Assembly (NCBI GenBank): GCA_035651655.1
Contig: DASRFG010000009.1
Location: 1-37,046 of the forward strand
Direction of reading: 5' to 3'
Source: Terriglobales bacterium
GTDB taxonomy: Bacteria > Acidobacteriota > Terriglobia > Terriglobales > Acidobacteriaceae
DNA: 37,046 bases
A model generated the notes under the pieces. It saw only the letters and a list, made by a program, of their open reading frames with translations, had not been told where the DNA came from and ran no database searches. The position numbers and the translations under genes were made by a program. Of the stretch, positions 7,088-31,074 are shown piece after piece. The stretch's first letter is position 1. Every line of letters begins with the position of its first letter.

Positions 7088-7101
7088 GTAGTCGAAACAC
7101 G

Positions 7102-9620: not shown

Positions 9621-9626
9621 ACCCAA

Positions 9627-10000: not shown

Positions 10001-10169
10001 AAGAGTGGCCCTTAAACGCACCCTTATCGCAAGCTTATTGCATTCATGTGAGAAGTGCAGAATAGAAGACCGTAAAGAGGTGACCCGTGTCGTCCACCGA
10101 GTGCTAGTGTTGCAACATGAGCAAAATACGCCTGAGTCTGGAGCGCGTTGGTTTTCGGTCGGAGTGCTT

Positions 10170-13701: not shown

Positions 13702-15396
13702 TTACTGCTCTCCTCCGGACGAATTGCTGCCCCACATCGCATTGCTACCCCACATGGCGTTGCTGCCCCACATCGCGTTATCGGACCAGACAGTGCTGAA
13801 CCCATCTGAGGTGCTCGAGCCCCACATGGCATTGCTGCCCCACATGGCATTGCTGCCCGACGTGCCCGATGACGAAACGAGGAACTGAGAATTCCCCCAG
13901 ACGGCCGAATTAGACCAGGTGGAGGACGTGTTCCACACCGCCGAAGGGTCGCTGGTTAAGAATGTCTGCCCCGAACTGAAATCGAAGACCGCAGCCGGAG
14001 ACATCGCCGTCCCGGCGGCCACGTCGGTGCTGCTCAGAGCAGCGTCCACATCCAGGTAGCCGGCGCCTACGGTGAACAAGTCGTATTGCGAAGTATAGGT
14101 TATTCCGGTGGCCGGATCACTTACGCTGCTGCTGGCGGGAAATGACTTCCACGCAGTCTTCATCAGCCGCGCCTTCACCTGATCTGGATTCAGCGAGGGA
14201 CTTTTTTGCAGCAGATCCGCCACGGCGCCGCTTACCACGCCGGCCGCCATGCTAGTTCCGCTCAAGCTGAAGTATGAGCTCGACGGCAAACTGCTGCCGC
14301 CCATCACGTAGTAGCTGTACGGAACGCGGTTGCCGGGATATTGGTTGTACAGGGTCCCTTGCGCTTCGAGGGATACCAGCAAGTTGCCCGGAGCAACGAC
14401 GTCTGGCTTTACGAAGTGATCAAGCGCCGTCGGACCTTTTGAGCTGTAGCTCGCGATTTGGTCGTCATTGCGGGTCGGCGTTCCCATCGGCTTCATCGCG
14501 CCCACGGTGATCACATAGGGATCATTGCCTGGAGACGTGATGGTGGCATAGCCATTGGTCGGCAGATAACGCCCATTGTTTCCTGCAGCGACAACCACCA
14601 CGATGCCGTTCTTCCAAGCTGCCTCGACCGCCTGACATACCGGATCAAGCTTGTAAGTTTCGTATACCGGCCGTCCTAACGAGAGATTCATTACCCGGAT
14701 GTTGTAAAAACCCTTCAGCGCAATCGCCTGGCTGATGGCGGCAATCACGGCGCTGTCACTTCCCATGCCGTTCTGGTCCAGCACGCGCAAATTGATCAGG
14801 TTAGCTTTTGGCGCGATGCCCTGGAAGGAGCGCAGATACTTCCAGCCTTTCGAACTTGCGCCATTTCCGGCAATTAATCCCGCAATGTGAGTTCCGTGAC
14901 CGTATTGGTCCGCCGTACTCCAGGTTCCGGGGACGAAGCTTTGGCTGTATACAACGCGCGACGTGCCCAAGAAGCCACCGTTCAAATCCGGATGACTGTT
15001 AATTCCACTATCAATCACAGCAACGCCGACGCCGGCGCCCGTGTAGCCGGACTGCCAGGCTGAAAAAGCATTGACGGCGGGGGCTGCATTGCTGAGAGTC
15101 GGGCTTAGCGGCCGATCCAGACTTATGTACTTCACGTTGGCCTGGTCCGACAGCGAGAGAATATTGGCGATGGGCAGATCGGCTACTACCGCGTTTACGA
15201 GCGGCAGTGCATTGACGATCGAGTTTACGAGGCCCAGTAAACTTCGAAGATCAAGCAGGCTAGGCGGCTGGCTATATTGCACGATAACCCTGGCCTGCGA
15301 ACCGGAGTAATTCTGGAGATCGGGTGACAGTTTGGATACATCGGCATGTACCAGCGTCACAGCAGCCAGCAGAAATACGATTAAGATCTTCTTCAT
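13702..15396 (-). CDS. Secreted subtilisin-like serine protease (S8) with NAMWG-repeat tail
   Basis: The protein has 564 residues with the start at the ATG at 15396, just before a clean signal peptide (MKKILIVFLLAAVTLVHA); the frame is open further but the extra part is not signal-like. Residues about 30-100 resemble an inhibitor-type propeptide. The S8 catalytic domain spans about 115-455 with the triad Asp129 (VAVIDSGI), His167 (YGHGTHIAG) and Ser382 (GTSMAAGVVSG), and the oxyanion Asn273 (AAGNNG). It cleaves peptide bonds outside the cytoplasm. The C-terminal 80 residues carry NAMWG repeats, listed separately, which may anchor or display the enzyme. It is transcribed away from the HD-GYP gene, sharing a 307-bp gap. 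Confidence 0.9.
   Translation of the reverse strand: MKKILIVFLLAAVTLVHADVSKLSPDLQNYSGSQARVIVQYSQPPSLLDLRSLLGLVNSIVNALPLVNAVVADLPIANILSLSDQANVKYISLDRPLSPTLSNAAPAVNAFSAWQSGYTGAGVGVAVIDSGINSHPDLNGGFLGTSRVVYSQSFVPGTWSTADQYGHGTHIAGLIAGNGASSKGWKYLRSFQGIAPKANLINLRVLDQNGMGSDSAVIAAISQAIALKGFYNIRVMNLSLGRPVYETYKLDPVCQAVEAAWKNGIVVVVAAGNNGRYLPTNGYATITSPGNDPYVITVGAMKPMGTPTRNDDQIASYSSKGPTALDHFVKPDVVAPGNLLVSLEAQGTLYNQYPGNRVPYSYYVMGGSSLPSSSYFSLSGTSMAAGVVSGAVADLLQKSPSLNPDQVKARLMKTAWKSFPASSSVSDPATGITYTSQYDLFTVGAGYLDVDAALSSTDVAAGTAMSPAAVFDFSSGQTFLTSDPSAVWNTSSTWSNSAVWGNSQFLVSSSGTSGSNAMWGSNAMWGSSTSDGFSTVWSDNAMWGSNAMWGSNAMWGSNSSGGEQ
13726..13851 (-). repeat. SNAMWG hexapeptide repeats in the protease C-terminus
   Basis: Five copies of NAMWG, two then three in groups of period six residues (18 bp), lie in the last 50 residues of the protease, with degenerate forms (AVWN, AVWGNS, TVWSD) before and between them. 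At DNA level the unit is CCCCACATGGCATTGCTG-like. Short repeats with regularly spaced Trp could stack into a beta structure or serve as a surface-binding tail. Function is unknown. Confidence 0.85.
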
Positions 15397-15528
15397 CGTG
15401 AAACAGCTCCAGTTAAGCGGCAACCGACCACACACCTGGCGGGAGTGCCGTTGAGGATTGCAACAGTACTGCCGTACTGCCCGTTGGTTTGTACTCAACA
15501 ACTTACGTGCGGTTAGGGCGGAAGAACG

Positions 15529-18133: not shown

Positions 18134-19726
18134 TCAGGGAAGCCCGAAGGCGAACAGCGAACTTCCCGCGGCAATAACGATGTACTCTTTGCCATTCACC
18201 GCGTAGGCCATTGGCGACGCGTAAACTGCTCCTCCCATTTGGAAGTGCCATAGGGCCTTTCCGCTGGCCGCATCGAGAGCAATAAAATTTCCTTCGGCGT
18301 CACCTGTGAACACGAGCCCTCCGGCGGTGGATAACACGCCAGACCAGGTCGGAGAGGGATGCTGGAATTCCCATTTCATTTGGCCCGTGGCAGGGTCAAT
18401 GGCACGCAAAGCCCCCGAATAGGGCTCGGCTTCGTCGGAAGGGAAATAGGCGCTTCCGAAATAGGCATGCCCGGCCTCGTAAGGCTGCGGCGCGGTGCTG
18501 AAGATGTCGCACTGGTCGCGGGCCGTCACGTAAAAGAGCCCCGTTTGCGAATCGAAGCTGGGCGACATCCAGTTGGTCGCGCCAAGCGCGCCCGGACACA
18601 CGGTGTGACCGTTGGGAGTCGGCGAACTTCCCGGCTTGGCGGCGGGACGGCCCTCGGCATCCTTGCTGTCGCTCCAGGTAATCCTGGCATACGGGCTTGC
18701 GGACACGAGTTTGTGCGTGCCGCGATCCAGCACATAAAAGAAACCGTTTCGATTAGCTTGCGCGATCAGGTGCTTGTCGCCGGAGTTGATCAGAATCGGA
18801 ACTTGCGTCGCATCCCAGTCGTGTTCATCGTGCCTGGTAAATTGGAAATGCCAGTTCAGCTTTCCCGTGTCTGGATTGAGTGACAGAAGAGTGTTGCTGT
18901 AAAGATTGTCACCGGCGCGGCCTTCCCCACGATTACTTGGCGAAGGATTCCCTGTGGGCCAGAACAGTTGATTCGTCTCCTGATCGTACACACCGGTGAT
19001 CCAGGCCGGCGCGCCTCCGATCTTCCAGGAATCACCTTCCCAAGTGTCGTGCCCGGGCTCGCCCGGTCCGGGTGTTGTATAGAACCGCCATTTGCGCTTG
19101 CCAGTATCGGCATCGTACGCGTCAATGAAGCCACGAATTCCATACTCGCCGCCCGAGACCCCGACAATGGCGGAATTCTTTATGGCCAGCGGAGCCAGGG
19201 TGAAGCTGTAGCCTTTGGTGTAATCGACAGCTGCAACATCCCACACAGTGTTGCCGGTCTTCGCGTCCAGTGCTATGACGCGCGCGTCGAGCGTAGCGAG
19301 AAATACCTTGTCTCCCAATATCGCAACGCCGCGGTTCACTCGCCCGCAGCAAGGCCGAATGTCTCCGGGCAACTGGTGTTGAAATAACCAGATCGGCCGC
19401 CCCGTGCGGGCATCCAGAGCGAATGCGCGGTCGTCGGGCCCAGTAGCGTACAGGATGCCATCGGCGACCAGCGGCGTGGTTTCGAACTTGCCGGTTGCGC
19501 CCGTCTGGTAGACCCACTTCACCACCAGCGTCCTGGCATTTGCCGCGTTGACCTGATCCAGTCCGCTATAACGGCGGCCGGCGTAATCTCCCGAATACAT
19601 GAGCCAGTTCTGCGGCTCCTTCGCGGCGTTCAGCAGCCTCTCGAACGAGACTGGCAAACGCGCTTCCGCCGCGAACACCGCCGTAACCAGCAGGAACATC
19701 ACTGTTGTTGCGCGCGAGCGGCTCAT
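18134..19726 (-). CDS. PQQ-dependent alcohol dehydrogenase-like protein
   Basis: The protein has 530 residues with an N-terminal signal segment (about 1-20) and an eight-bladed propeller pattern of repeated W-type motifs such as ALDARTGRPIW and ALDAKTGNTVW. Visible cofactor features are the vicinal disulfide Cys126-Cys127 in RPCCGRVNRG, the metal ligand Glu194 in SGGEYG, Asn260 in GNPSPSN, and catalytic Asp303 with a second Asp305 in HDWDAT. The Asp at +2 marks lanthanide-dependent members. It should oxidise an alcohol in the periplasm and pass electrons to cytochrome c. It lacks the fused C-terminal heme domain of some relatives. Its start overlaps the stop of the diheme cytochrome gene by 4 bp (ATGA), so the two are co-translated. 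Confidence 0.88.
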   Translation of the reverse strand: MSRSRATTVMFLLVTAVFAAEARLPVSFERLLNAAKEPQNWLMYSGDYAGRRYSGLDQVNAANARTLVVKWVYQTGATGKFETTPLVADGILYATGPDDRAFALDARTGRPIWLFQHQLPGDIRPCCGRVNRGVAILGDKVFLATLDARVIALDAKTGNTVWDVAAVDYTKGYSFTLAPLAIKNSAIVGVSGGEYGIRGFIDAYDADTGKRKWRFYTTPGPGEPGHDTWEGDSWKIGGAPAWITGVYDQETNQLFWPTGNPSPSNRGEGRAGDNLYSNTLLSLNPDTGKLNWHFQFTRHDEHDWDATQVPILINSGDKHLIAQANRNGFFYVLDRGTHKLVSASPYARITWSDSKDAEGRPAAKPGSSPTPNGHTVCPGALGATNWMSPSFDSQTGLFYVTARDQCDIFSTAPQPYEAGHAYFGSAYFPSDEAEPYSGALRAIDPATGQMKWEFQHPSPTWSGVLSTAGGLVFTGDAEGNFIALDAASGKALWHFQMGGAVYASPMAYAVNGKEYIVIAAGSSLFAFGLP

Positions 19727-20571
19727 TTCGCAGCCACGCTGATCAGGTAGGCGATCACGTCGTGCATGTCCGCGTCACTTAGGAGGCTTGGACTGTAAGA
19801 AGGCATGAGCGAATGCCGGGACTTCGTTATGGACCTCAATTCATCTTTGTCGAAGAAGTGGATTGTTTCAGAGGTGTCCATCATTTGAATCGTGAAGCTA
19901 TCCTCGTTCAGGGTTACGCCTTTGATCTGCTCGCCCTTGGCCGTGACCACAGTTACGGTTTCGTATTCCTGGGGGAATTCTTTCGTCGGCTCGGTTAAGC
20001 CCCAGGCGAGCCGCTGGCTGGGTTTTCGGATTGCCTCAATCAGGGCGTCGACCCTTCTGGTGCTTCCCACGTTGCTCAGGTCTGGGCCGATGTGGCCGCC
20101 TTTGCCGCCCACCATGTGACATGAGGAACAGTTCGCGTCGCCATAGAACAGTTCCTTTCCGTGAGCGGCGTTGCCGATCGGCTTTGCCGGCGCCTTCACC
20201 TCAATGCTGCGGATATATGTAATGATTTCCCAAATTTCTTCCTCGGTCATCCCGACACCCTGTCCGTTTGTTCCATTGGCCGGCATGACGGTGCCCGGAA
20301 TACCGCTGCTGACGATCTGGAACAACTCCGCGTCTGAATTTCCATGGCGCTTATGGGCGACAGTGAGATCGGGACCACGTCCGCCACCGCGGGCGCCGAG
20401 GCCATGGCAGAGAGCGCAGTTGATACGGAACTCGTATTCGCCGGCTTTCGCCGCCTTAGCGCTTCCGGCAAACGGGTTTCGAGTTTGGGCAAAGCTCGGA
20501 ACTGCCAAGGCGCAGGCGAGACAGAGCCATTGTGCCCATTTATTGTTTTGCAGGAGACGGCTGTAGGGCAT
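19723..20571 (-). CDS. Diheme cytochrome c, partner of the PQQ dehydrogenase
   Basis: The protein has 282 residues; the ATG at 20571 gives a signal peptide (cleavage after about PSFAQ), and a start 36 bp earlier seems less likely. Two c-type heme sites are seen: CALCH in the first domain and CSSCH in the second. Met ligands are probable in GTVMPANG and SLMPSYSP. The last 130 residues (KGEQIKGVTLNEDSFTIQMM, then DADMHDVIAYL) resemble the heme-binding domain found in large cytochromes of Planctomycetes and Acidobacteria. It should carry electrons from the PQQ dehydrogenase to a terminal acceptor or to the neighbouring multiheme proteins. It overlaps the dehydrogenase start by 4 bp. Confidence 0.88.
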   Translation of the reverse strand: MPYSRLLQNNKWAQWLCLACALAVPSFAQTRNPFAGSAKAAKAGEYEFRINCALCHGLGARGGGRGPDLTVAHKRHGNSDAELFQIVSSGIPGTVMPANGTNGQGVGMTEEEIWEIITYIRSIEVKAPAKPIGNAAHGKELFYGDANCSSCHMVGGKGGHIGPDLSNVGSTRRVDALIEAIRKPSQRLAWGLTEPTKEFPQEYETVTVVTAKGEQIKGVTLNEDSFTIQMMDTSETIHFFDKDELRSITKSRHSLMPSYSPSLLSDADMHDVIAYLISVAAK

Positions 20572-20682
20572 GATCGCGGTCACGAAGTGCCGCGCATGAT
20601 AGCACACGATTTTGGGTATAGATGGGAGAAATGCCGAGAGGGACGGTGGAAATCAGGTCGTCATGCAAAACAAAGTAACGGA

Positions 20683-20775
20683 TGTCATCCCGAGCGGAGC
20701 GAGGGATCCGGGTTCCTGCCGGCCTTATCGCGACGTCGAGAAAAACCTAGGTCCCTCGCTCCGCTCGGGATGACA
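20683..20775. repeat. Inverted pair of the interspersed repeat with 24-bp arms
   Basis: Arms at 20683-20706 and 20752-20775 are perfect reverse complements over 24 bp with a 45-nt spacer. The arm is the same element as the array at 9627-10000, in both orientations. It can form a strong hairpin in RNA from either strand and sits in the 338-bp gap (20572-20909) between the stop of the electron-transfer operon and the cytochrome/PQQ pair, where it may end or stabilise transcripts. Nothing else was found in the gap. Confidence 0.9.
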
Positions 20776-20909
20776 ACAAGCTCTGGGGCAGCTTGGGAGT
20801 AAATCGAAACGTCTGTGGTTGGCCCACTTGCGGCCTAGATCATCGGGCGCGGGTTCCAGGGGTTGATTTGTTTCTCGCAATTGATTGCGATACGGAACCC
20901 TGAGAATTC

Positions 20910-22280
20910 CTAAGCGTTGGCAAACTGCGCTTTTACCAGTTGTGCCTGCTTGACCTCTTTGCTTGCCTCAGCGGTAATGTCCCTCATGCCGAATTGCAGG
21001 CCGATCTTCTTCAAGAAATCGTAAGGTGGCGTGCCTCCGGCGAATACCCAGACAAAGTCATTGGGAATCTCTTCCTTGGCCCCGTTTACTTCCAGGATGA
21101 CCGACTCGGGTTTGATCTCGACCGGAGCTGAGTTGAACAACACTTTGATCTTGCCGCTGCGCATGCACTCGTCAATGCGCTTTGAGTTCCTTTCCTTGAT
21201 GCGGCTGAATTGTTCCTTGCGGTATGACATTGTGACCTGATTGCCGATTTGATTGGCGAGTCCCATAGCGGCTTCGACGGCGCTGTCCCCACCGCCCACC
21301 ACGAGAATGCGCTTGTTCACGTAGTGGTCGGCTTCGATCAGGCGGTACATGACTTTGGGCAGTTCTTCTCCTTTGACGCCAAGTTTGCGCGGGGTGCCGG
21401 TTCTGCCGAGGGCGAGAATTACCGACCGGGTGCGATAGCGGTTATTCGCGGTGACGACCGTGAAAATTCCATCGGCCTCTTTCTTGATGTCGTCCACCTT
21501 TTCACCGGTCCGGACATTGAAGTCGGCGCGGTTCAGAACCATGTCCCAGAACGCCAGCAGGTTCTCTTTCGACAGCTCCGTCTTTTTGAATTTTCCGTAG
21601 GTGGGAAACTGCACGGGACTAGTCATCACCAGCTTCTGCTTCGGATACTTGGCTACGGTTCCGCCGACCTCGTCCTGCTCGAGCGTAATGTACTTCAGCT
21701 TGTGTTCGATGGCGCGCAGCGAAGCGCTTATCCCTGCAGGTCCGGCGCCCACGACCAAAACGTCGAAGGTGTCAGCGGAAGCAGGAGGACCGCCGCCAAG
21801 GCGAGCCGCAATGGTGTCGACACAGTCACGTCCATGATTCACGGCGTTCTTGATCAGGGCCAGGCCGCCCAGTTCTCCGGCAATAAAGAGGTTGGGAATG
21901 CTGGTTTCATGTTCCGGAGTCATGAACGGCATGTCGGCGCCCATGCTCGGACTCGCCATGACCATGGTGATGGCGCCCACGGGACATGCGTCCGCGCAGA
22001 GTCCGTGCCCAATGCATTTGTATCCATTCACGATAGCCGCTTTGCCCCCGAGCATGGCCAAAACATCTCCCTCAGGACACACTGTCGTGCATGTAGCGCA
22101 GCCGATGCATTGCGCATTGTCGATGTGGGGGTGCTGCGACTTCGGGCCCTCGGAAAACGTTTTGCCTTTTTCCGCAGCGGCTCGCGCTCGCGCGTCTCTG
22201 GTTCGCAGACTCTTCAGGTAGCCGCGGAGAAAGAAGGCGGTGAGCAGTGCGGTGATGGCGAGGGCGATGAGTGTGTCCAT
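20910..22280 (-). CDS. Ferredoxin-domain flavoprotein, NAD(P)-binding oxidoreductase
   Basis: The protein has 456 residues. A membrane-like N-terminal helix (about 3-20) is followed by a two-cluster ferredoxin domain (about 50-110): C58, C61, C64 and C68 (CIGCATCTTVCP), then C89, H92, C95 and C99 (CIGHGLCADACP), where His replaces the second Cys. Next come the segment NLFIAGELGGLALIKNAVNHG (about 130-150), which is usually at the C-terminus of this flavin fold, then the FAD-binding VVGAGPAGI (about 176-185) and a NAD(P)-binding VVGGGDSAVEAA motif in the second half. There is no CxxC of thioredoxin reductase, so it resembles YpdA-type proteins. It lies 2 bp after the membrane cytochrome b gene, suggesting a complex that links NAD(P)H or ferredoxin to the membrane. 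Confidence 0.82.
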   Translation of the reverse strand: MDTLIALAITALLTAFFLRGYLKSLRTRDARARAAAEKGKTFSEGPKSQHPHIDNAQCIGCATCTTVCPEGDVLAMLGGKAAIVNGYKCIGHGLCADACPVGAITMVMASPSMGADMPFMTPEHETSIPNLFIAGELGGLALIKNAVNHGRDCVDTIAARLGGGPPASADTFDVLVVGAGPAGISASLRAIEHKLKYITLEQDEVGGTVAKYPKQKLVMTSPVQFPTYGKFKKTELSKENLLAFWDMVLNRADFNVRTGEKVDDIKKEADGIFTVVTANNRYRTRSVILALGRTGTPRKLGVKGEELPKVMYRLIEADHYVNKRILVVGGGDSAVEAAMGLANQIGNQVTMSYRKEQFSRIKERNSKRIDECMRSGKIKVLFNSAPVEIKPESVILEVNGAKEEIPNDFVWVFAGGTPPYDFLKKIGLQFGMRDITAEASKEVKQAQLVKAQFANA

Positions 22281-22282
22281 GG

Positions 22283-23227
22283 CTATGACATGTACCCCAT
22301 CATCATCACCACTACGATATGAATGAGAGCCAGAACGGCGAATGTGTAGCTGAAAGGCTTGTGGACCACGTGCCAGAGGTTAAATACCTTTTCCGATCGT
22401 GACAGGAACAGGATGCGTTTCGATAGCGCGGCTTCGCTGGAAGCGACATCAATAGCGCGCTCCAGCGCGCCGTTTCGGGTGCGAAACAATCCGAAAAACG
22501 TGGTGAGGTATTCGCCTCCGCGCAGCGCGTGACGGCGTACCTTGGCTACTCGGAAGATGCGTGCCAGGTCGAGCAGCATCATGTAGACAATCGCAATCGC
22601 GATGGGCATGCGTTCCACCGTTTCAGGTCTCGGGAGCCGCAGCATTTCCCGCAAATCAGCTTGCGGGAGCAATCGCTGCTGAGACAACTCGGCAGACATC
22701 TGGGCCTGCAGGTCCTGCATTTCCTTGCGGGTCAATTCGGCGGCATTGACTCGCCGCGGGATCTGAGAATAGAGATACCGGCCCACCACCCCGCTGGCAG
22801 ATACGGCTGCCATTATCCAGAACGCAATTCCGGCGAAGCCCTGGAATTTGAACGATGAGTGAAAAGAAATGATGAATGGCGCGGAGAGGCCTAGCAAAAC
22901 GTGGATGTCGAGCCAATGCCGCGTGCTGCCCAGCCGCATCAGCCAGGGCCAGTGCTTGCGAATCGGGTATAGAAAGATTGAAAAGAATATGGCCAATCCC
23001 AGGAACCCGAGCTTCAGTCCGATGACGCCACTGGGCTTCAAAAGATGGTGTTTTGGAGAAAAAGGCCGCTGGACAATATCCAGCGTGTAGTAGTCCCACC
23101 CGTACACCGCAAGCGCGACTAAAAGAAGGATCGCGATCACATAGCCGGTAACCAGGCGTATGCGGTGCGCTCGTTCGCCGTTGCGGACTGCCGGGATAGC
23201 GTGCGCCGAAGCGATGGCTGTGCTCAT
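22283..23227 (-). CDS. Membrane b-type cytochrome-like protein
   Basis: The protein has 314 residues with about six membrane segments (about 23-45, 66-90, 105-125, 130-152, 207-226 and 288-311). His residues that could bind heme are H104 and H109 (RHWLDIH), H123 (SFHSSF), H286 and H289 (LWHVVHKP), and H303 (LIHIVVV), spaced across the membrane as in small b-type cytochromes or ferric-reductase-like proteins. A hydrophilic loop lies between 153 and 206. It should take electrons from the flavoprotein or from quinol. Its stop is 2 bp before the flavoprotein start and its start overlaps the previous gene by 4 bp (ATGA), so the three genes are translated as a unit. Confidence 0.78.
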   Translation of the reverse strand: MSTAIASAHAIPAVRNGERAHRIRLVTGYVIAILLLVALAVYGWDYYTLDIVQRPFSPKHHLLKPSGVIGLKLGFLGLAIFFSIFLYPIRKHWPWLMRLGSTRHWLDIHVLLGLSAPFIISFHSSFKFQGFAGIAFWIMAAVSASGVVGRYLYSQIPRRVNAAELTRKEMQDLQAQMSAELSQQRLLPQADLREMLRLPRPETVERMPIAIAIVYMMLLDLARIFRVAKVRRHALRGGEYLTTFFGLFRTRNGALERAIDVASSEAALSKRILFLSRSEKVFNLWHVVHKPFSYTFAVLALIHIVVVMMMGYMS

Positions 23228-24072
23228 TTGTTTGCGACCTGCTCCTCTGTGCTGACCGAGAATCGCTTGTAGTCAGAAAATTTGTGGGTATTACGCCAAT
23301 GCTGCCGTGGTGTTTGCACTTCCACCACAGCCTCCTGCGGAAACCAATACGTGCTTAGCTCCTTGCCGAACCGCACAGGACCATATTCAACTTCGGACCG
23401 CAGGCTCTTCATTCCGATGTCCTCCACCCCGCGATCGATGCCGGCATTGATTTTCGCAATCAATCCGGTTGCGGGATCTATCCATGCCGTTCCAGAGAGT
23501 TCGAGAGGATATTCGCGTCCTCGTACCGCGAGCGCCGCAACTGACTTGGTGTTTGGAATGTGGTCGAAATGGAGCTTCAGAAGCTGTTTGCCGGCGATCG
23601 TCTCACTGCCCAGCGATGCGAACTGGAAGCTCCCGGCATAATAAGGATGAAAGATAAGAAACAGCGTGGCGAAGCCGTTGCTGATCAGCAAGGGCGCATT
23701 CTGGTTCTTCTTTGCCGCGGCCGGCTCTTGCATCGCCAGACGCGACTCGTCGAGGCTGAGCTCACCGCCGGTATTGGTCAGGATGACCAGATAGTCGAAG
23801 GTTGATTCCGCCCTGCGTTCCGGCTTTTCCTCTTTTCCAAACTTCTCCTGCGTCACGTGCTCAGTGCATTTAACTTCCGAAAACTGCTCAACGAATTCAG
23901 CCACCTGTTTGCTGGTGCGGGCCAGCACGTCGTCCAAGGGCTTGTCTTGGGCGCTAACCCGGCCAGGTGTGATTCCGCACATCAGCGTGAGCGCGAACGC
24001 CGCGAGGGGGACAAACCGACCTGCCACGCGGGGGCGGAATAACTTAGCCCAGCGCTTCAGGGCTGGGATCAT
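23224..24072 (-). CDS. Exported protein of unknown function
   Basis: The protein has 282 residues with a signal segment (about 15-42, LAAFALTLMCGITPGRVSA). The mature part includes VKCTEHVTQEKFG (about 68-80) and long beta-rich stretches, and looks like an acidobacterial outer-membrane lipoprotein-sorting-like fold. There is no lipobox, only one Cys, and no heme site. Its start overlaps the end of the upstream barrel gene by 29 bp and its stop overlaps the cytochrome b start by 4 bp, which ties it to the operon. It may help assemble the outer-membrane proteins. I do not recognise a known name. Confidence 0.65.
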   Translation of the reverse strand: MIPALKRWAKLFRPRVAGRFVPLAAFALTLMCGITPGRVSAQDKPLDDVLARTSKQVAEFVEQFSEVKCTEHVTQEKFGKEEKPERRAESTFDYLVILTNTGGELSLDESRLAMQEPAAAKKNQNAPLLISNGFATLFLIFHPYYAGSFQFASLGSETIAGKQLLKLHFDHIPNTKSVAALAVRGREYPLELSGTAWIDPATGLIAKINAGIDRGVEDIGMKSLRSEVEYGPVRFGKELSTYWFPQEAVVEVQTPRQHWRNTHKFSDYKRFSVSTEEQVANK

Positions 24073-26983
24073 GCCGGACCAATAAGTCCCGGAGGGACGA
24101 CATAGGACAATAGTTTTCCTTTTTTTCCCCCCGGTGCCAGGAGTCGAAGCGATACCCGAACGTGGTGAACCACTGGTCGTAATTCATGGTGCCGCCGCGG
24201 TTCCAGGTCCAACCGCCTTGTAGGAAATAATGTGGGCCAATCGGCGCTTCGAGATTGGCATTCACGAAATGCGACTTGTTGCTGGTCGCGAGCGTCGACG
24301 TATATGCCTGCTGCCCGGCCAGCAATTCCCAGCGGAAGTTGTCACGGAAATTGCGCGATAACGAAAACGCCTTGTAATCTCCATTGCCGTAAGAGCTATT
24401 GAACCGTGAGTAGCGCAGGTCCGCGCGAAACTTGTAAGGCAACTCGCCGAACGTGATCCCGTAAAGCTGGTTTAAGGACGACTTGGCCTCGCCCGATCGG
24501 CTGCTTTTGCCGAGCGTGGCATACACCCAGATCTTCTTCAGGACTTCGATGCGCGGCCCGGCACTGAATCCCTGGAACAAATATTTGTCCAGCAGCCCGG
24601 TCCCGATCAGCTGCGGATCGAAATTCGGCACGTCACGGGAGTAGGTGTGGTTCACGTCAAACTCGAAGCGCTCGATGGGCTGGATTCGCAGTGTGGTGAA
24701 CGCACGGCTGACACCGGCTCCGGGGGACGTGACCGCCGGATTGCTGGCCGGCCGGTCCGCCTGCACTGCGCTGTAGATCGAAAAAATTCGCTTGTAGAAC
24801 AATCCGTTTTCGAAGAACAGGAAGGGGCGGTTGATTTTCCACTTCAGCATCTGCACGCCCGTCCCGGACGTGCTGGTGTATCGAAAATTGTCGAAGCTCC
24901 CGCCTTCGAAGTTGACGAACATCCCCCCCATCTGCTGGTCGGGCGCATAGCTCCATGAGGTCGGGTCTGGGGTGGAGCCGGCGAACAAGCCGACAGTCAT
25001 TCCGGTTCCCACGCGCCGGCCGAAGTAGCCGCCATCAATGGTGTCGAGACTCGTGGCCCACGGCAGGTAAAGACGCCCTACGCCTGCAACCCAGCGCGAT
25101 TGCGGGTTGTCGTAAGTGAGCGCGAGGTGATACGTGCGGTTGATGAGGTCCTGCAGGGTAGGGGTGGTGGAAGACGAGTTTTTTGTAAAGCGGCCGCGCC
25201 AGTAGCCACTCATGTTCCAGTAGCTCCCGCCGATGCGGCTGATATCGGTGCGGACAACCATGCCAATATTGGAACTCGTAGAGCCGACCGCGCCATGGCT
25301 GAAAATGCCCGAGTAGTCGACGCCAACGCGGCCGCGCGCACGATTGACTTCCGGCAACGGCGGGCGCGGAACTTCTTCCCGAGCCTCTTCCTCGAGAGGG
25401 TCTCCTTCGGTGAAGGAAATTACTGTGGGGTACTTCCGCGTCGCGCTCAGGGAACGCTGGGCCACCAGCGCCTGTGTGTCTTCCGACGAAAGATATGCCA
25501 AGTCCCCCGGCTTCACGTCTCGCTTGGGCTGGATGATCTCGGTGACCGCGGAGGTTTCGGCGATCGAGATCACCTTCAGTTCAGCCACCGTTTGGAGTCC
25601 GTCTTCATTTCCGGTGTCCATCTTCGGCGCGGATGGCTGCGTGTCGCGCACTTCCAGCTTCATGCCCTCGATCAATCCGGAACTTCGTCCGGCGTCGAGG
25701 TAGGCAGCGCCCTCGGCTACATACTTCACCTTGAAAGCGGTGCGAACGTCAGCGTTGGGCTGGCGCGAGCTCAGCACCGGAAGCATTCCATCGCGATCGG
25801 AGTTAGAAGGCGTACTGGCTGCAGCGACCGTAGAAGGACTCGAAGCACTCGCAACCGCGGCCGTCGAAACTGGATTGGACGGTTGTGGCGCGGTCACAAG
25901 CGGCGCAGCCGCGACCGGCTTTTGAATCTCAGCGGCTGAAGGCTTACCAGCCTCGGGCGGCTGCAGGGATGCCACTGCAATCATCCGACTAGCACTGACA
26001 GCCACAGCGGGTGCTTGAATCGGCGCTGGCGAGGATAGGGGCGGAGTTTGAATGTTTGGCTGCGCTGACGCAGCAGTGTGAACAGGCGCTTGTTTGATTT
26101 CGGTCCCGGAGACTGCATCCTGCTGCACTGGCTTTGATACAGAGGCAGCCGGCGTAACCACCATTGCCACTGTGGCAGTCGGCATAGTAGCGGGAGGCTC
26201 TCCTACCCGGGCCGACTCGGGCACCGCAGCAGCGCCACCAGTGCTGTCGGAGCGCTGGTTGCCCGCATTTTCTCCCGCGGCCCGCGGCACAACTCCGGTA
26301 CCCGGCGCCCCGATGCCCGGGAACACCGTGCCCTGCTGCAGGCTACCGTAGTTCGGGTGCGCAGCCGTCGGACTCGCTGCGACTGCAGGTGCTGATGCAT
26401 TCGCCTGTGAGGCTTCCTGTGAATCGGGAAACTTCAGAGGCGGGCGCGAAGTACTTGGGGGAGGGACCGGAGCAGGTGAAACTTCAACCGATACCGAAGC
26501 GACCGGATTCCGGCGGCGACGTAGCCTGCCAAACAAGGGAACGCCCGCAGCGCCCGGCGCGCCGCTGCCGCCGCTTGAAGTCGAGGCAAGCGCCGATGGC
26601 AAGACGGTCAGCGTTACCTTGTTCCCATCTCTCGACAGGCCATAGGGGCGGGCGGCGTCCAGGTCAATGACGACCCGGCTGACGGGCGGGTTTTGGCTGG
26701 TTAAGCCGACCCGCACTGACTTAATGCCGTCCTGACCAAAGGCGATGTGCTGCTGCTTGGCGCCAGCAAGCGTATTCGCGAATTCAAGAACCAAGCGGGG
26801 CGGGTTTTCCGCAATGATGACCTTGGGATCGACGGCCGCGCTGATCGTGACTTCTACCTGGGTACCGTTCGCAGCGCGTGTAATGTCAACCTGGCGGATT
26901 TCGCCGGGAGCGTTGCCTTGTGCTCGGGCCAGGGCGCCGGCGCCGAACATCAAGAGGAGGAGAATTGCTTGCACTCTTACCAT
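24044..26983 (-). CDS. AMIN-domain protein with predicted C-terminal outer-membrane beta-barrel
   Basis: The protein has 979 residues; the ATG at 26983 begins a signal peptide (VRVQAILLLLMFGAGALARA). An AMIN domain follows (about 28-128; VEVTISAAVDPKVIIAEN, then RVVIDLDAARPYGLS), the peptidoglycan-linked domain also found in secretins such as PilQ. Residues about 135-410 are an Ala/Pro/Ser-rich linker. A domain like the SH3-type part of FlgT (about 435-535: AAYLDAGRSSGLIEGMKLEV, later DVKPGDLAYL) precedes a region of about 390 residues with alternating hydrophobic strands, many aromatic girdle residues and a strand-like C-terminus, as expected for a porin. Beside two multiheme cytochromes it could be the porin of an electron conduit. 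It overlaps the next gene by 29 bp. Confidence 0.75.
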   Translation of the reverse strand: MVRVQAILLLLMFGAGALARAQGNAPGEIRQVDITRAANGTQVEVTISAAVDPKVIIAENPPRLVLEFANTLAGAKQQHIAFGQDGIKSVRVGLTSQNPPVSRVVIDLDAARPYGLSRDGNKVTLTVLPSALASTSSGGSGAPGAAGVPLFGRLRRRRNPVASVSVEVSPAPVPPPSTSRPPLKFPDSQEASQANASAPAVAASPTAAHPNYGSLQQGTVFPGIGAPGTGVVPRAAGENAGNQRSDSTGGAAAVPESARVGEPPATMPTATVAMVVTPAASVSKPVQQDAVSGTEIKQAPVHTAASAQPNIQTPPLSSPAPIQAPAVAVSASRMIAVASLQPPEAGKPSAAEIQKPVAAAPLVTAPQPSNPVSTAAVASASSPSTVAAASTPSNSDRDGMLPVLSSRQPNADVRTAFKVKYVAEGAAYLDAGRSSGLIEGMKLEVRDTQPSAPKMDTGNEDGLQTVAELKVISIAETSAVTEIIQPKRDVKPGDLAYLSSEDTQALVAQRSLSATRKYPTVISFTEGDPLEEEAREEVPRPPLPEVNRARGRVGVDYSGIFSHGAVGSTSSNIGMVVRTDISRIGGSYWNMSGYWRGRFTKNSSSTTPTLQDLINRTYHLALTYDNPQSRWVAGVGRLYLPWATSLDTIDGGYFGRRVGTGMTVGLFAGSTPDPTSWSYAPDQQMGGMFVNFEGGSFDNFRYTSTSGTGVQMLKWKINRPFLFFENGLFYKRIFSIYSAVQADRPASNPAVTSPGAGVSRAFTTLRIQPIERFEFDVNHTYSRDVPNFDPQLIGTGLLDKYLFQGFSAGPRIEVLKKIWVYATLGKSSRSGEAKSSLNQLYGITFGELPYKFRADLRYSRFNSSYGNGDYKAFSLSRNFRDNFRWELLAGQQAYTSTLATSNKSHFVNANLEAPIGPHYFLQGGWTWNRGGTMNYDQWFTTFGYRFDSWHRGEKKENYCPMSSLRDLLVRHDPSPEALG

Positions 26984-27021
26984 GAATATCTTTTTCAAAC
27001 GCCAGTTGCGCGCTCGTGGGC

Positions 27022-28698
27022 CTATCCCCCCTTGTGGCACTGGTAGCAATTAATGCTGTTGTAGACATATCCGCCCACTCCCTGGTGGTTCGAATCAGTC
27101 TCCGATTTCGTGTGACAGTTCGTACACGTAAAAATCTTGTAGTTACTGGGATTGGTGTGGCACGTCGCGCATACCCCATTCGCATTGCCGTGGTTCACGG
27201 GGAAGAAGGTATGGTTCCAGTTCGCCGGAATCCAGGCAGTCGTGTTGTGACAGGTGGCGCACGTAGTCGGAAACGCGGCGGCGATGTGGTTCGGGCTGGT
27301 AGTCCCGTTGTAGTCAGGCTTGTGGCAGGAATAGCAGTCTGTCGGCACGGTCGTGTAGTTGTTGTTGACGTGACAGCTGGCGCACGGGACCTTGGTGTGA
27401 AATCCGGTGAGCGGGAACGCCGTGTTGTTGTGATTGAAGCTGGACGGAATCCAGGCAGTCGTGTTGTGGCACACCTCACATTGCTGCGGGAATCCAGAGG
27501 TGATGTGATTCGGACTGGTGGTTGCCTGGAAATCCTTCAAATGGCAGGTCACGCATGCGGTACTGGTCAGGTTGTAGTTGTTGTTGACGTGGCATTGAGC
27601 GCATTGCACCGTGGCGTGAAACCCGGTCAGCGGGAATCCGGTTGCAGCATGGTTGAAGGTCGCAGTCAGCCATGACGTGGTGTTATGGCAGACCTCGCAC
27701 TGCTGCGGGATGCCTTGCTGCACGTGGTTGGGATTAGTCGTGTTCTGGTAAGTCTTCAGGTGACATGAAACGCACGTTTTGGTCGTCAGGTTGTAATTCC
27801 CATTCACGTGACATTGGCTGCACTGCACCGTGGCATGGGCGCCGGTGAGCGGGAAGCCGACCAGGTTGTGATCGAAGCTGGCCGGCTGCCAGGCGTTAGT
27901 CGAGTGACACTGCTGGCAGTTCTGCGGGAATCCCGCCGCAACGTGGTTCGGATTTGTAGTCTTCTGGTAATCGGGCAAGTGGCAGCCCACACAATTGGCG
28001 GACGTGCCTTTATATTTGCCGCCGATGTGGCACGCGGTGCAGTCCAGCGTGGCGTGCATGCCGGTCAAAGCGAAGCCGGTGAACTTCAGGTGATCGAAGC
28101 TCGCGCCGAACCACGTGTTCATGGTGTGGCACAGCTGGCAACTGGTGCTGAAGCCGGTTGCCATGTGGCTGGGACCAGTAGTCCGCTGGAACGTCTGCGC
28201 GTGGCAGGAGTAGCACTCGGTCGACATCGTGGTGAAGTTGCTCAAAGCACCATTTTTGTGACACGCGGTGCAGTCCAGCGTCGCGTGGGCTCCCATCAGC
28301 GGGAACCGATTGTTGTGGTTCTGAATCGCTTTAACAGATACGTTCCAGCCATTCACCGTGTGACACTGTTCGCATCGTGCACCCATCTTGGCGCGATGGA
28401 TGTCGGCGTGGCAGTCGGCGCACTTGGTGCCCACGTTGGAAAACACGGGCTTGGTATGGCACTGGGTGCACATCACTCCCTGGTGCATGCCGCGCAACGG
28501 GAAGCGTGTCTGGTTGTGATCAAACTCAGGCATGCCGCGAATCGGTTTCCATCCCAGCGAGGTGTGGCAATTGGTGCAAGCCATGTTGAGCGGTCCATGC
28601 GGACTTCTGGTCTGCGCTGACACCTGTGCCTGGCCGGCAGGAACGCCCAGCGACATCAGAATCAGATTGATCAGAATGGTCGAAAGCAATCTGCCCAC
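27022..28698 (-). CDS. 22-heme c-type cytochrome
   Basis: The protein has 558 residues with a signal segment (about 1-24) and 22 CxxCH heme sites, counted one by one. Hemes 4-18 lie in five successive three-heme units of 73-78 residues, each with the pattern CxxCH, FxH, GFPLTGxHA, CxxCH, CxxCH and PNHxxxGFP; His residues between the CxxCH motifs can be distal ligands. Four more hemes follow, including CATCH, CTNCH and CYQCH near the end. The start is a GTG at 28698. Such wires carry electrons over long distances, probably across the periplasm to or through the outer membrane. It is followed 38 bp later by the barrel gene. Confidence 0.92.
   Translation of the reverse strand: MGRLLSTILINLILMSLGVPAGQAQVSAQTRSPHGPLNMACTNCHTSLGWKPIRGMPEFDHNQTRFPLRGMHQGVMCTQCHTKPVFSNVGTKCADCHADIHRAKMGARCEQCHTVNGWNVSVKAIQNHNNRFPLMGAHATLDCTACHKNGALSNFTTMSTECYSCHAQTFQRTTGPSHMATGFSTSCQLCHTMNTWFGASFDHLKFTGFALTGMHATLDCTACHIGGKYKGTSANCVGCHLPDYQKTTNPNHVAAGFPQNCQQCHSTNAWQPASFDHNLVGFPLTGAHATVQCSQCHVNGNYNLTTKTCVSCHLKTYQNTTNPNHVQQGIPQQCEVCHNTTSWLTATFNHAATGFPLTGFHATVQCAQCHVNNNYNLTSTACVTCHLKDFQATTSPNHITSGFPQQCEVCHNTTAWIPSSFNHNNTAFPLTGFHTKVPCASCHVNNNYTTVPTDCYSCHKPDYNGTTSPNHIAAAFPTTCATCHNTTAWIPANWNHTFFPVNHGNANGVCATCHTNPSNYKIFTCTNCHTKSETDSNHQGVGGYVYNSINCYQCHKGG
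27262..28374 (-). repeat. Tandem three-heme repeats in the 22-heme cytochrome
   Basis: Five successive coding units start at Cys109, Cys187, Cys261, Cys334 and Cys407 of the protein. The last three are exactly 73 residues (219 bp) apart and close in sequence (for example CEVCHNTTSW and CEVCHNTTAW), while the first is more diverged. This points to growth of the protein by duplication of a three-heme block. Confidence 0.85.
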
Positions 28699-29079
28699 CC
28701 TTTTAAGCCCGATTCAACTGCTCAGTCGAAATTCGATAAGGACGCGAAGAAAAGTTACGACAGTCTTTCGGGCACGAGTGGCGATTCGTTATCTCAATTA
28801 GCTGCAGCAATTCTCTAGCCACTAAGATTACTCGGGAGGACACGTTTCAAACACGTTACGCAAGGCCGTGTTCATGCGGACATTCGCTGCTGTCTAAATT
28901 TCTGTCGTGCGATGTATATATTTTTGTGAGTAACTTCTTCAGGCGGGATTCCGCACAATTTACCTGTTGATTCTACGGTTCAAAAATTTTGACTGATGAA
29001 CCCACGCAGTTGTCCAGAAATCCGCACAAAACGCGGCCTGGATACGCGCCCCTGAAAGGCGGCGGCGCGGCTGCGCAAT
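28699..29079. other. Non-coding gap between the two cytochrome genes
   Basis: 381 bp without a gene. It is A/T-rich in the middle, with TATATATTTTT at about 28915-28925. A direct repeat ACACGTT occurs at 28840-28846 and 28851-28857, 11 bp apart. A weak promoter-like pair reading toward the 22-heme gene, TTGAAC at 28983-28978 and TAAATT at 28962-28957, has a spacing of only 15 bp. I see no clear terminator. The gap suggests the 22-heme gene and those after it can be transcribed separately from the 23-heme gene. Confidence 0.4.
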
Positions 29080-31074
29080 CTAGCTCCCAGCGCGCTTTTC
29101 AGGCCCGTGACAGGCAGCGCATTCCTTCGGAGTGGGCTTGTAAAACAGGACAGATTTGCCGCTCACCATCTGTGTGTTCTTGTGACAAGCCGCGCAGCGC
29201 ACATTCTGGTGCGCTCCTTTCAGTGAAAAAGTGGTCCGCCGTTCGTGGTCAAACAGTGATGGCTTCCATCGCAAGCTGTTGTGGCAATCGGCACAAGGAG
29301 TGATATTCGCGGCGTTCGCGAATTGCGGCCCGTGAATGTTCTCGTGACACTGCTCGCACTTGGTGGGCGCTGCCTTGAAATCCGCATTGACTAACTTCGT
29401 TCCCAGGTCTGGCGGTTTGTGGCAGTCAATGCATGCCGTTCCCCGGTGCGCTCCCAGCAACGGAAACGACGTCCTGGAATGGTCGAACTTTCGCAGGTCA
29501 CGCCACGAATCAGTGTTGTGACACGTCTCGCAACCGGTCCCCGTCTGCTGCATCCGGTCCTTGAACTGGCCCTTGTGCGGGTCCTGGTGGCAAACGGTGC
29601 AGGAGCGGTTTTCGAAGTGATAAATCGCGGTATTCCGCACTTGCGGTGCAGCCGTGGCACGCGCTTCTCCCTTGAGATCTGACGCCGGCTTATGACAATC
29701 CGCGCAGGGTGTTGCCATGTGGCCGCCGGTGAGTTGGAACCGTGTTTGTTTATGTTTCGCCAGGCTGAACGTGGAGGGGCGGTAGCCTTTCAGATCGTGA
29801 CATTGCTCGCATCGGTTGAAGTAGGGAGCGGTGGCGAACTGGCTCTCGTGCTGGTCTTTGTGGCAGTCCGTGCACTGTCCAAACTTAAGACGGTAGAGTG
29901 TGTCCTTGCCCTTCGGTATGTGGCACTTCGCGCAGTCGACTGTGGCGTGCTTTTGCAGCAGCGGGTACGCCGAGCTGGCATGTTCCTTCACGCCGTAGGT
30001 CGTCGGCTTGAAACCCTGAACGCTGTGGCACGAAGAACATTCTCCTTTGTCAGCGCGCTTAATGAACTGTCCGTTGTGCTGGTCCCGGTGACAGTCCGTG
30101 CATTTCTGGAATGCCAGGGGTTTCTTAAAGTCGCCGCCAGTGTGGCAGCGCAAACAATCGACTGCCTGATGTTTGCCTTCCAGAGGGTATTTGGTTTTGG
30201 AGTGATCGAACTTCTGGCTTACCGCCTGCAGGGAGACCTTTTTCCATCCGCCCGTGTTATGGCATGACTGGCAACCTTGCGGCGCAAAGCTGCCGTGATG
30301 CGGATCAGAGTGACAATCCGAGCAGGCGCCGAATGCGAGTCCAGTCCATCGTGGCTTGTTGTCCGTACCGGGCGTGTGGCACTTCTGGCAATTGACGTTG
30401 GCGTGCAGGCCAGTCAGCGGATACCGTGTCTTGCCGTGATCGAACTGTGAAGTATTTTTCCAGTCCTCAAAATTATGGCACTGCTGGCAGTTCTGCCCGA
30501 GCCGCCCGTTGTGTTCGTCCTTGTGGCAGTTCACGCAATTACGGTCGACTCCAAGGAAGGTGCGGTTCTTGTCGCGGACCTGGATGGAGAACATTTCGGT
30601 CCGGGCGATGTGCTCCGGGGTGTGGCAGCGGTTGCACTGCAGTCCGGCGTGTTTACCCGCCAGGGTATACCCAGTCTTGCTGTGGTCGAATTCCGCCGGT
30701 GTTGGAGTCCACTTAACAATCGGGAAGTCGACGCCGTTGTGCTCGGAATGGCACCGGGCGCATTCCTGGCTGGAGTCGGCTTTCAGTTCATACGAGGCGT
30801 GCAGCCCACGTCCAGCCCGTAACCGGGAGGCGATCTCGTTGTGACACTCGAGGCACTTCAGCGTGCGCACGGCGCCGAGTTTGTGACAGGAGGTGCAATT
30901 TACCGCGCTGTCCAGAGTTTTATGCGCTCGGGAAAGCGGTCCGGGAGATATCTGTGATGTCGCAGCGCCCGCAAACAGCCATAGAAGAGAGAGCAAAGCC
31001 GCGACTCGCGCACAGGCCGTGTAACACGACGCTCTACGACGGGCGGGTATTAGCTGCTCAAGGACGTCTTGCAT
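29080..31074 (-). CDS. 23-heme c-type cytochrome
   Basis: The protein has 664 residues with a signal anchor (about 22-42, AALLSLLWLFAGAATS) and 23 CxxCH sites, counted one by one. A recurring unit is FDHSKTxYPLxGKH, CxxCH, CxDCHxDxHxGQF and CxxCH; the unit size is looser than in the 22-heme protein. His residues in FDH, GxHA and DxHxG can be the sixth ligands. It is likely periplasmic or exposed and would form a long heme chain with the other cytochrome. It is the first gene of the minus-strand redox locus, transcribed divergently from mnmE across a 237-bp gap. The many plus-strand ORFs inside it are shadows. Confidence 0.92.
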   Translation of the reverse strand: MQDVLEQLIPARRRASCYTACARVAALLSLLWLFAGAATSQISPGPLSRAHKTLDSAVNCTSCHKLGAVRTLKCLECHNEIASRLRAGRGLHASYELKADSSQECARCHSEHNGVDFPIVKWTPTPAEFDHSKTGYTLAGKHAGLQCNRCHTPEHIARTEMFSIQVRDKNRTFLGVDRNCVNCHKDEHNGRLGQNCQQCHNFEDWKNTSQFDHGKTRYPLTGLHANVNCQKCHTPGTDNKPRWTGLAFGACSDCHSDPHHGSFAPQGCQSCHNTGGWKKVSLQAVSQKFDHSKTKYPLEGKHQAVDCLRCHTGGDFKKPLAFQKCTDCHRDQHNGQFIKRADKGECSSCHSVQGFKPTTYGVKEHASSAYPLLQKHATVDCAKCHIPKGKDTLYRLKFGQCTDCHKDQHESQFATAPYFNRCEQCHDLKGYRPSTFSLAKHKQTRFQLTGGHMATPCADCHKPASDLKGEARATAAPQVRNTAIYHFENRSCTVCHQDPHKGQFKDRMQQTGTGCETCHNTDSWRDLRKFDHSRTSFPLLGAHRGTACIDCHKPPDLGTKLVNADFKAAPTKCEQCHENIHGPQFANAANITPCADCHNSLRWKPSLFDHERRTTFSLKGAHQNVRCAACHKNTQMVSGKSVLFYKPTPKECAACHGPEKRAGS

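Follow-up and report, generated by a model that had tools for sequence, protein, structure and literature searches.

The locus described here raises the question whether two giant multiheme cytochromes, encoded next to a predicted outer-membrane barrel in a Terriglobales bacterium (Acidobacteriota), belong to an electron conduit across the cell envelope, to which kind of conduit, and what would feed it. It lies at positions 18134-31074 of contig DASRFG010000009.1 (assembly GCA_035651655.1) and consists of eight consecutive minus-strand open reading frames (ORFs); the window is the whole stretch of 37,046 nucleotides that was analysed. From upstream to downstream, these are the cytochrome genes cytA and cytB, the barrel gene, a gene for a conserved 282-aa protein (LP), a membrane b-type cytochrome gene (bcyt), an Fe-S flavoprotein gene (FdFl), and genes for a diheme cytochrome c and a PQQ dehydrogenase. 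The sequence-only reading of this DNA took them for an extracellular electron transfer (EET) locus with an AMIN-domain porin, possibly fed by periplasmic alcohol oxidation, and knew of no described conduit with this gene set.

We consider it fairly probable that the locus encodes an electron conduit of PCC3 type that spans the cell envelope and has an entry protein of its own, linked to NAD(P)H or ferredoxin. By conservation of the genes, the system comprises six of the eight, the PQQ dehydrogenase and the diheme cytochrome c standing outside it. The gene set does have a precedent: PCC3, a porin-cytochrome system that is itself predicted and has received little study, has a porin, two giant cytochromes and an inner-membrane protein of about 300 aa (PMC5566968; this and the other papers are cited from excerpts). 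We file the locus as PCC3-like because the bcyt motifs and the gene order of distant loci match published PCC3, and it is most likely a conduit of that type rather than of an undescribed kind.

Components and arrangement of the locus

Named loci were the best 80 of 354 confirmed stretches, chosen by bcyt; the ORF picker was simple, and genes cut by contig edges, frameshifts (L038/L109, L123) and runs of N depress the counts. All 80 carry acidobacterial titles (Acidobacteria, Terriglobia, Acidobacteriaceae, Bryobacterales and similar), and two records without a metagenome-assembled genome label, strain AB60 and Occallatibacter savannae AB23, are presumably isolates. The usual order is cytA-cytB-barrel-LP-bcyt-FdFl. 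Upstream sequence reaches 9 kb or more in 48 loci; 45 of these have cytA with 18 or more hemes (41 with exactly 23), 46 have cytB, 47 the barrel and 47 LP. Downstream sequence reaches 3 kb or more in 61 loci; in 53 of them FdFl follows no more than 3 kb away on the same strand, a number that rises to 58 when either strand and 5 kb are allowed. LP and bcyt overlap by exactly 4 bp in 47 of 76 pairs. The clustering of barrel, giant cytochromes, membrane b-cytochrome and ferredoxin-flavoprotein, first noticed on one contig, is thus borne out in other genomes.

A survey of 297 genomes of the phylum found bcyt in 52 at E<=1e-5 and in 33 at E<=1e-30. cytA (E<=1e-20) is present in 36, including all of these 33, and the close-group barrel profile (E<=1e-10) matched 22, of which 19 fall within the same 33. 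Twenty listed members of the window's family without bcyt gave no cytA or barrel match either, and the system is therefore an accessory trait.

Across 40 neighbourhoods, two arrangements dominate: that of the window's relatives, given above, and that of the distant loci, bcyt-(FdFl)-cytA-cytB-barrel, where FdFl may or may not be inserted. Loci L051, L053 and L061 are arranged otherwise, and L069-L076 are different clusters. In L069-L074, a second kind of cluster contains a flavoprotein-cNMP-binding fusion, a bcyt relative, a 10-heme FHA cytochrome and an HbpS-like protein, together with a 10-heme LVIVD-repeat cytochrome (domain scan of L073 alone). L075 (8857-12062) has a bcyt relative, a 7-heme cytochrome and an FNR homolog, with no match to the barrel profile, and is perhaps a minimal form of the inner-membrane module.

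Outside Acidobacteriota, bcyt was found on one of 72,556 plasmids, pEMTOL02 of Emticicia oligotrophica DSM 17448 (Bacteroidota), in the order CcsA/ResB-bcyt-FdFl-cytA-cytB-barrel; no record besides Emticicia came up when plasmids were searched with bcyt, with FdFl and with the cytA of Emticicia. Chromosomes beyond Acidobacteriota were covered solely by the bcyt scan of named genomes, whose best 80 are all acidobacterial. The Emticicia cytA has exactly 23 CxxCH motifs and its cytB 40, and the acidobacterial close-group profile by itself matches its barrel at 7.9e-25. A cytochrome c assembly gene (CcsA/ResB) stands alongside, which is consistent with heme loading of the predicted cytochromes. 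The Emticicia proteins are 32-43% identical to the acidobacterial ones, a level that gives neither a date nor a direction for a transfer. On the same plasmid (L171:5899-10521), genes for Rieske, DUF5777 barrel, YceI and c-type cytochrome-domain proteins diverge from the conduit genes, a sigma factor gene separating the two sets.

Three loci, L130 (strain AB60), L139 and L146, carry cytA-(LP)-bcyt-FdFl without cytB and barrel, and in each of these genomes the barrel is found at another place. In AB60, one barrel adjoins a 46-heme cytB and a second one a 7-heme cytB; the L139 genome has three barrels, each adjoining a cytB, of which two, with 16 and 36 hemes, are truncated at contig ends and the third has 7 hemes; the L146 genome holds a second, cut locus cytB-barrel-LP-bcyt. 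Since two genomes split the locus, cytA/bcyt/FdFl and cytB/barrel can act as two modules, and because cytB adjoins the barrel in split loci it is the barrel's partner. LP stays with the inner-membrane module in two split loci. In another locus, L123 (6349-10942), cytA is spread over two frames with 11 and 12 hemes, cytB is missing and the barrel is a remnant of 203 aa; this locus is apparently decaying or mis-assembled.

The heme motifs of the window's cytochromes stand far above background. In 2000 residue shuffles of each of the three, the mean number of CxxCH sites was 0.25 for the 23-site protein, 0.27 for the 22-site and 0.005 for the 2-site one, and the maximum never exceeded 3; together with the ORF listing and the motif counts, this confirms the eight minus-strand genes and the 23, 22 and 2 sites noted earlier. 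All 44 cysteines of cytB lie inside CxxCH motifs and exactly 22 histidines lie outside them, and cytA has 26 histidines besides the motif ones, enough for bis-His ligation at all of the predicted hemes. Both proteins match cytochrome c7/c3 models, and cytB passes the TIGR04257 model of the triheme ‘nanowire’ domain (43.9 bits, cut-off 40).

The two cytochromes evolve differently. Heme numbers were counted in 47 cytA and 52 cytB ORFs that have 10 or more hemes and lie clear of contig ends, the 21 distant loci and Emticicia being kept outside these statistics. Of the 47 cytA ORFs, 42 have 23 hemes; the other five (19, 19, 11, 12 and 21) include frame-split copies. cytB ranges from 15 to 61 hemes, where the 15-heme ORF is a fragment in L140 (N runs, second piece) and the lowest sure number is 19. 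Its heme number is 1 modulo 3 in 40 of 52 ORFs, as expected because the protein is built of whole triheme units, mostly spaced 73 aa. Among 40 loci with intact 23-heme cytA and cytB, window included, the closest relative by cytA has a different cytB heme number in 38, and at cytA identity of at least 80% cytB differs in 5 of 5 pairs, by 3 to 18 hemes. Thus cytA is nearly fixed and the length of cytB changes quickly. When triheme units were compared across 51 cytB with 19 or more hemes, that of the window among them, 106 of 445 were nearest to a unit of their own protein, and none of the 51 first units; recent duplication of units, read from these similarities, is real, yet not the rule.

The barrel gene product of the window matches AMIN N-terminally (42.1 bits, cut-off 20.5) as its sole Pfam match. 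An AlphaFold2 model of residues 540-982 (443 residues) is a 22-strand barrel with mean pLDDT 77, and the earlier suggestion of an outer-membrane barrel is thus supported by structure prediction. Foldseek gave 241 matches at E<=0.001, led by outer-membrane barrels (ushers, MOMP, AlgE, OprD), with low TM-scores of about 0.3-0.45. In VIA-align, outer-membrane barrels also lead (Z 13.3-16.6), with TonB receptors, which are 22-stranded barrels, coming first and PiuA on top (Z 16.6 over 353 residues). Sixty-three full-length barrels were aligned, of which 48 entered alignment A3 and 42 alignment A4. A scan of 42 barrels against all Pfam models at E<=0.001 found AMIN in 20, FlgT_C in 4 and nothing besides; the AMIN domain announced by the sequence-only reading is therefore present in the window's protein without defining this barrel. 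The wide barrel profile contains 7 of the distant barrels found with it; these 7 were also picked up by the close-group profile, at E<=2e-13.

The inner-membrane protein of PCC3 is described as having about 300 aa, five helices, SGXXG on the fourth transmembrane helix (TM4) and WX3HX13H on TM3 and TM5 (PMC5566968). In the window, bcyt displays W105-X3-H109-X13-H123, SGVVG at 145 and W285-X3-H289-X13-H303. Two overlapping samples of the family, A5 (39 of 81 sequences) and A1 (29 sequences, omitting 4 of 33), have the complete WX3HX13H-SGXXG-WX3HX13H in 39/39 and 28/29, as has the Emticicia bcyt, against 0 of 20000 shuffles; both HX13H pairs are found in every sequence of A1 and A5. In the alignment of 29 relatives, H109, H123, H286, H289 and H303 are invariant. 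The AlphaFold2 model (mean pLDDT 84) has helices 17-47, 68-84, 102-123, 130-155 and 275-313, the HX13H pairs being on 102-123 and 275-313, which places the motifs as published for PCC3, but it shows additional helices between 163 and 273. On this basis bcyt is predicted to be a diheme cytochrome b. The segment 155-276, with 20 K+R and 13 D+E, is probably cytoplasmic and could be a docking surface for the flavoprotein.

Sequence searches of the PDB returned nothing or chance matches with cytA and cytB (E 0.001), with the barrel profile (E 1) and with bcyt and its profile (E 1), and LP and bcyt gave no Pfam or NCBIfam match at E 0.001 and 0.01. Within the bcyt family, Ferric_reduct (PF01794) appears as weak matches (E up to 5) in 34 of 39 sequences, the best at E 0.0023, with further weak matches to DUF4405 (33), PepSY_TM (16) and b561 (15). 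VIA aligned the bcyt model with cytochrome b561 (4o6y; Z 6.2, 127 aligned, 3.7 A) and with STEAP1 and STEAP4 (Z 5.6 and 5.5); this list gives no support alone, because unrelated helical rows have equal or higher Z.

Proposed electron entry and direction of flow

FdFl carries two 4Fe-4S sites and a YpdA/thioredoxin-reductase-like FAD/NAD(P) region behind an N-terminal hydrophobic helix, and is predicted to be the NAD(P)H/ferredoxin-linked entry protein. It is found in 11 of 21 distant loci, adjoining bcyt in 7 and elsewhere in the cluster in 4 (L051, L056, L061, L065). In another 7 of the 21, bcyt is adjoined by an FNR-type protein unrelated to FdFl: FAD_binding_6, NAD_binding_1 and Fer2 domains were found in 6 of 6 scanned (L049, L048, L057, L060, L062, L068), and the seventh (L054, cut by the contig end) is a BLAST homolog. 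The two never occur together (0/21). Since they replace each other, NAD(P)H (or ferredoxin) is suggested as the currency at the cytoplasmic end.

From the gene set, the synteny, the heme and b-heme motifs, the predicted barrel and the modular split, all present in the sequence, we infer heme loading, assembly, direction, donor, acceptor and every transfer step as follows. Anchored at the cytoplasmic face of the inner membrane, FdFl would receive electrons from NAD(P)H (or ferredoxin) on its FAD and two 4Fe-4S clusters. bcyt, whose HX13H pairs would bind two b hemes, would pass them across the inner membrane, the 23-heme cytA across the periplasm, and cytB, a triheme chain of strain-variable number, together with the 22-strand barrel, through the outer membrane. 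The acceptor outside could be, for example, Fe(III) oxide or humic quinones. A more specific version, which we advance tentatively and rate at somewhat less than an even chance, is a quinone-independent wire: the flavoprotein would oxidise NAD(P)H or ferredoxin, two b and some 42-84 c hemes would lead to the outside, and the reach would be adjusted via the triheme units of cytB. If true, PCC3 would be a self-contained NAD(P)H:extracellular-acceptor oxidoreductase and a redox-balancing valve in soil bacteria, passed from phylum to phylum as a cassette. Acidobacteria are abundant in soils, and a wire leading directly from NAD(P)H to the cell surface would there matter for the redox cycling of iron and humics.

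Alternatively, the quinol pool would feed the conduit, bcyt being a quinone-active cytochrome b and the flavoprotein serving another step or reducing quinone. This follows the published hypothesis for the inner-membrane proteins of PCC3 and PCC4, proposed to be quinone-active diheme cytochromes b with shared motifs (PMC5566968), and the known bacterial EET entry proteins CymA, CbcL and ImcH are quinol oxidases (PMC6295460). We nevertheless hold it to be unlikely, given that 18 of the 21 distant loci contain, with bcyt, one of two unrelated NAD(P)H-type flavoproteins and none contains both, and that FdFl follows bcyt by 2 bp in the window and, among the named loci, is no more than 30 bp away in 60 of the 72 pairs that share a strand. 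PCC3 electron entry has been hypothesised as the quinone pool; the present loci pair bcyt with NAD(P)H-type flavoproteins of two unrelated kinds, and this pairing, with the split modules, makes the system directly testable. Hosts that appear to be cultured include Occallatibacter savannae AB23, strain AB60 and E. oligotrophica DSM 17448.

Two other explanations seem to us improbable, the second a little more so. The conduit could work inwards, extracellular Fe(II), minerals, humics or partner cells reducing cytB and electrons reaching NAD(P)+ or ferredoxin via FdFl; direct reduction of NAD(P)+ requires, however, a strongly reducing donor. The first description of PCC3, in Fe(II) oxidisers, used an inward model (PMC5566968), and electron flow in Mto/Mtr conduits can be reversible (PMC10734462), whereas acidobacteria are listed among Fe(III) reducers (PMC6295460). 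Or the locus could encode an electron store, a short-range redox buffer whose cytochromes would hold electrons in the periplasm while the barrel exports or anchors. The very large heme numbers, up to 61, would suit such a store, as would the occurrence of the peptidoglycan-binding AMIN domain in 20 of the 42 barrels scanned. A capacitor role has also been raised for PCC3 cytochromes (PMC10734462). That cytB remains beside the barrel in split loci points instead to a barrel-cytochrome pair.

The proposed PCC3-type conduit with a flavoprotein entry also has its own weak points. The loci were preselected by bcyt and relatives are not independent; bcyt may have a quinone link, as proposed for PCC3. 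Neither flavoprotein is found in 3 of the 21 distant loci, and in several loci FdFl is on the opposite strand or more distant. The likeness to proteobacterial PCC3 lies in motifs, composition and order taken from published descriptions. cytA has 23 hemes where the periplasmic PCC3 cytochromes of Gallionellaceae have 21, 24 or 27 (PMC10734462), and in distant acidobacterial loci it is not invariably 23: nine have 23, three FNR-type loci 24 (L049, L060, L068), L061 has 20 and one cut ORF 32. For PCC3 porins, as many as 42 transmembrane segments have been described, whereas the present barrel is predicted to have 22 strands. bcyt scores 13.8 bits against the Pfam cut-off of 28 for Ferric_reduct, and Foldseek found no match to its model at E<=0.001. 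The hydropathy scan flags 20-49, 62-91, 130-149, 204-222 (weakly) and 290-314, leaving unflagged the helix 102-123 of the first His pair; as it disagrees with the model, the five membrane helices are those of AlphaFold2.

Limits of the locus and neighbouring sequence

The ORF coordinates (Table 1) show the tight junctions reported earlier, a 4-bp overlap of LP and bcyt, the 2-bp gap from bcyt to FdFl and a 4-bp overlap of the diheme and PQQ genes, but the run is interrupted by 381 bp between cytA and cytB and by 302 bp between FdFl and the diheme gene. Because of these two gaps, the eight genes are probably not a single transcription unit. The 302-bp gap contains a REP-like inverted repeat, which is likely the end of the locus. 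Promoter- and terminator-like sites are scarcer than in shuffled sequence.

Table 1. Features of the locus, in window coordinates.
Feature	Position	Strand	Description
cytA	29080..31074	(-)	664 aa, exported-type, 23 CxxCH, N-terminal hydrophobic stretch
cytB	27022..28698	(-)	558 aa, c7-type triheme repeats (73-aa units), 22 CxxCH
Outer-membrane-type barrel protein	24044..26983	(-)	likely ATG at 26983; ORF extends to 27049
AMIN domain of barrel protein	26615-26893		profile match
Barrel region of barrel protein	24104-25432		predicted
282-aa conserved protein (LP)	23224..24072	(-)	N-terminal hydrophobic stretch
bcyt	22283..23227	(-)	314-aa membrane protein, predicted diheme cytochrome b
FdFl	20910..22280	(-)	N-terminal hydrophobic helix, two 4Fe-4S sites, YpdA/TrxR-like FAD/NAD(P) domains
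REP-like inverted repeat	20683..20775	no strand	between FdFl and diheme gene; two facing copies, 32-nt arms
Diheme cytochrome c	19723..20607	(-)	2 CxxCH; outside system
PQQ-dependent alcohol dehydrogenase-type protein	18134..19726	(-)	TIGR03075 match; outside system

The last two genes had been suggested as possibly feeding the conduit by periplasmic alcohol oxidation. This idea is not supported: downstream sequence reaches 8 kb or more in 54 named loci, and a homolog of the PQQ protein is found at 2 of them and one of the diheme cytochrome at 1, which rules out both as parts of the system. The PQQ protein scores 563.6 bits with TIGR03075 (cut-off 480) and 508.6 bits, under the cut-off, with TIGR04528 (‘acido-empty-quinoprotein’). 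The genome encodes PqqE above cut-off, and the PQQ enzyme is therefore probably functional independently of the conduit.

Further REP-like repeats of the form CATCCCGAGCG..GAGGG are found at 9615-10014, with 7 matches (at most 3 mismatches) at 9641-9999, where chance would give 0.06 across the entire window. Elsewhere, an ORF at 13702-15501 for a putative subtilisin-like protease has a C-terminal run of NAMWGS-type repeats. A tyrosine-recombinase-like integrase ORF (7344-8675) stands behind phage- or island-type genes; the region 5040-8675 resembles an integrated element.

Relation to known systems

MtrCAB, MtoAB and PioAB also combine a barrel with multiheme cytochromes, but these are decaheme and the conduits quinol-fed via CymA. 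As to an MtrB/PioB-type porin, the comparison was made through Pfam models alone, and the 42 barrels match only AMIN or FlgT_C at E<=0.001. The porin-cytochrome layout is likewise shared with the Geobacter OmbB-OmaB-OmcB, Ext and Holophaga conduits; the Geobacter conduit is set apart, by its description, through the octaheme OmaB and the dodecaheme OmcB (PMC6344600). Among acidobacteria, MtrB- and ExtB/E-type PCCs have been reported in Holophaga (PMC7399161) and putative EET systems in Acidobacteria genomes from Chocolate Pots (PMC6137239). An unbinned contig from Trout Bog has a 51-heme cytochrome that was assigned to a putative PCC (PMC6344600), possibly a locus of the same kind as ours.

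The membrane domain of ferric reductases, NADPH oxidases and STEAP proteins would resemble bcyt, as modelled, by two HX13H pairs on TM3 and TM5 and a flavoprotein partner. It differs in that bcyt stays under the Pfam cut-off and is a polypeptide separate from the flavoprotein, and would feed cytochromes rather than O2 or Fe directly. The c7-repeat ‘nanowire’ cytochromes of Geobacter, such as GSU1996, consist of triheme c7 repeats; cytB is alike in these repeats, unlike in its 15-61 hemes and in its genetic tie to a barrel. Its variation beside a near-constant 23-heme cytA offers a natural series for studying effects of wire length.

PCC4 shares the inner-membrane-protein motifs and has other redox proteins alongside, but is described with 4-, 5- and 10-heme cytochromes and no giant ones (PMC5566968). 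PCC3 is known from Alpha-, Beta- and Gammaproteobacteria including Sideroxydans and Leptothrix; its extracellular cytochrome has a median of 34 hemes, up to 85, and is repeat-rich, its periplasmic one a median of 21, with 22-39 aa per heme (PMC5566968). In Gallionellaceae, the extracellular cytochromes have 10-35 hemes (PMC10734462). The locus described here resembles it in uniting a porin, two many-heme cytochromes and an inner-membrane protein of about 300 aa with SGXXG between two WX3HX13H; cytA corresponds to the periplasmic cytochrome in position and size, cytB to the extracellular one, and their 28.9 and 25.4 aa per heme fall within the reported range. The Sideroxydans order, inner-membrane protein, periplasmic cytochrome (cyt-c_p), extracellular cytochrome (cyt-c_e), porin (Slit_1446-1449; PMC12016527), is that of bcyt-cytA-cytB-barrel in distant loci, among them L049, L052, L056, L063, L065 and L068, and recurs with FdFl inserted behind bcyt in L058, L059 and Emticicia. 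Among the matches listed, literature searches found neither this locus in Terriglobia/Acidobacteriota or Emticicia nor a flavoprotein tied to PCC3, no search having named PCC3 itself.

Unlike published PCC3, the window's group places cytochromes and barrel first and has the additional 282-aa protein, the barrel often carries AMIN, and an Fe-S flavoprotein or FNR-type reductase, outside the four components of the excerpted PCC3 description, adjoins the inner-membrane protein. As far as searched, the Acidobacteriota and Bacteroidota hosts are new, as is the flavoprotein, whose place is taken in some lineages by an FNR-type NAD(P)H reductase unrelated to it.

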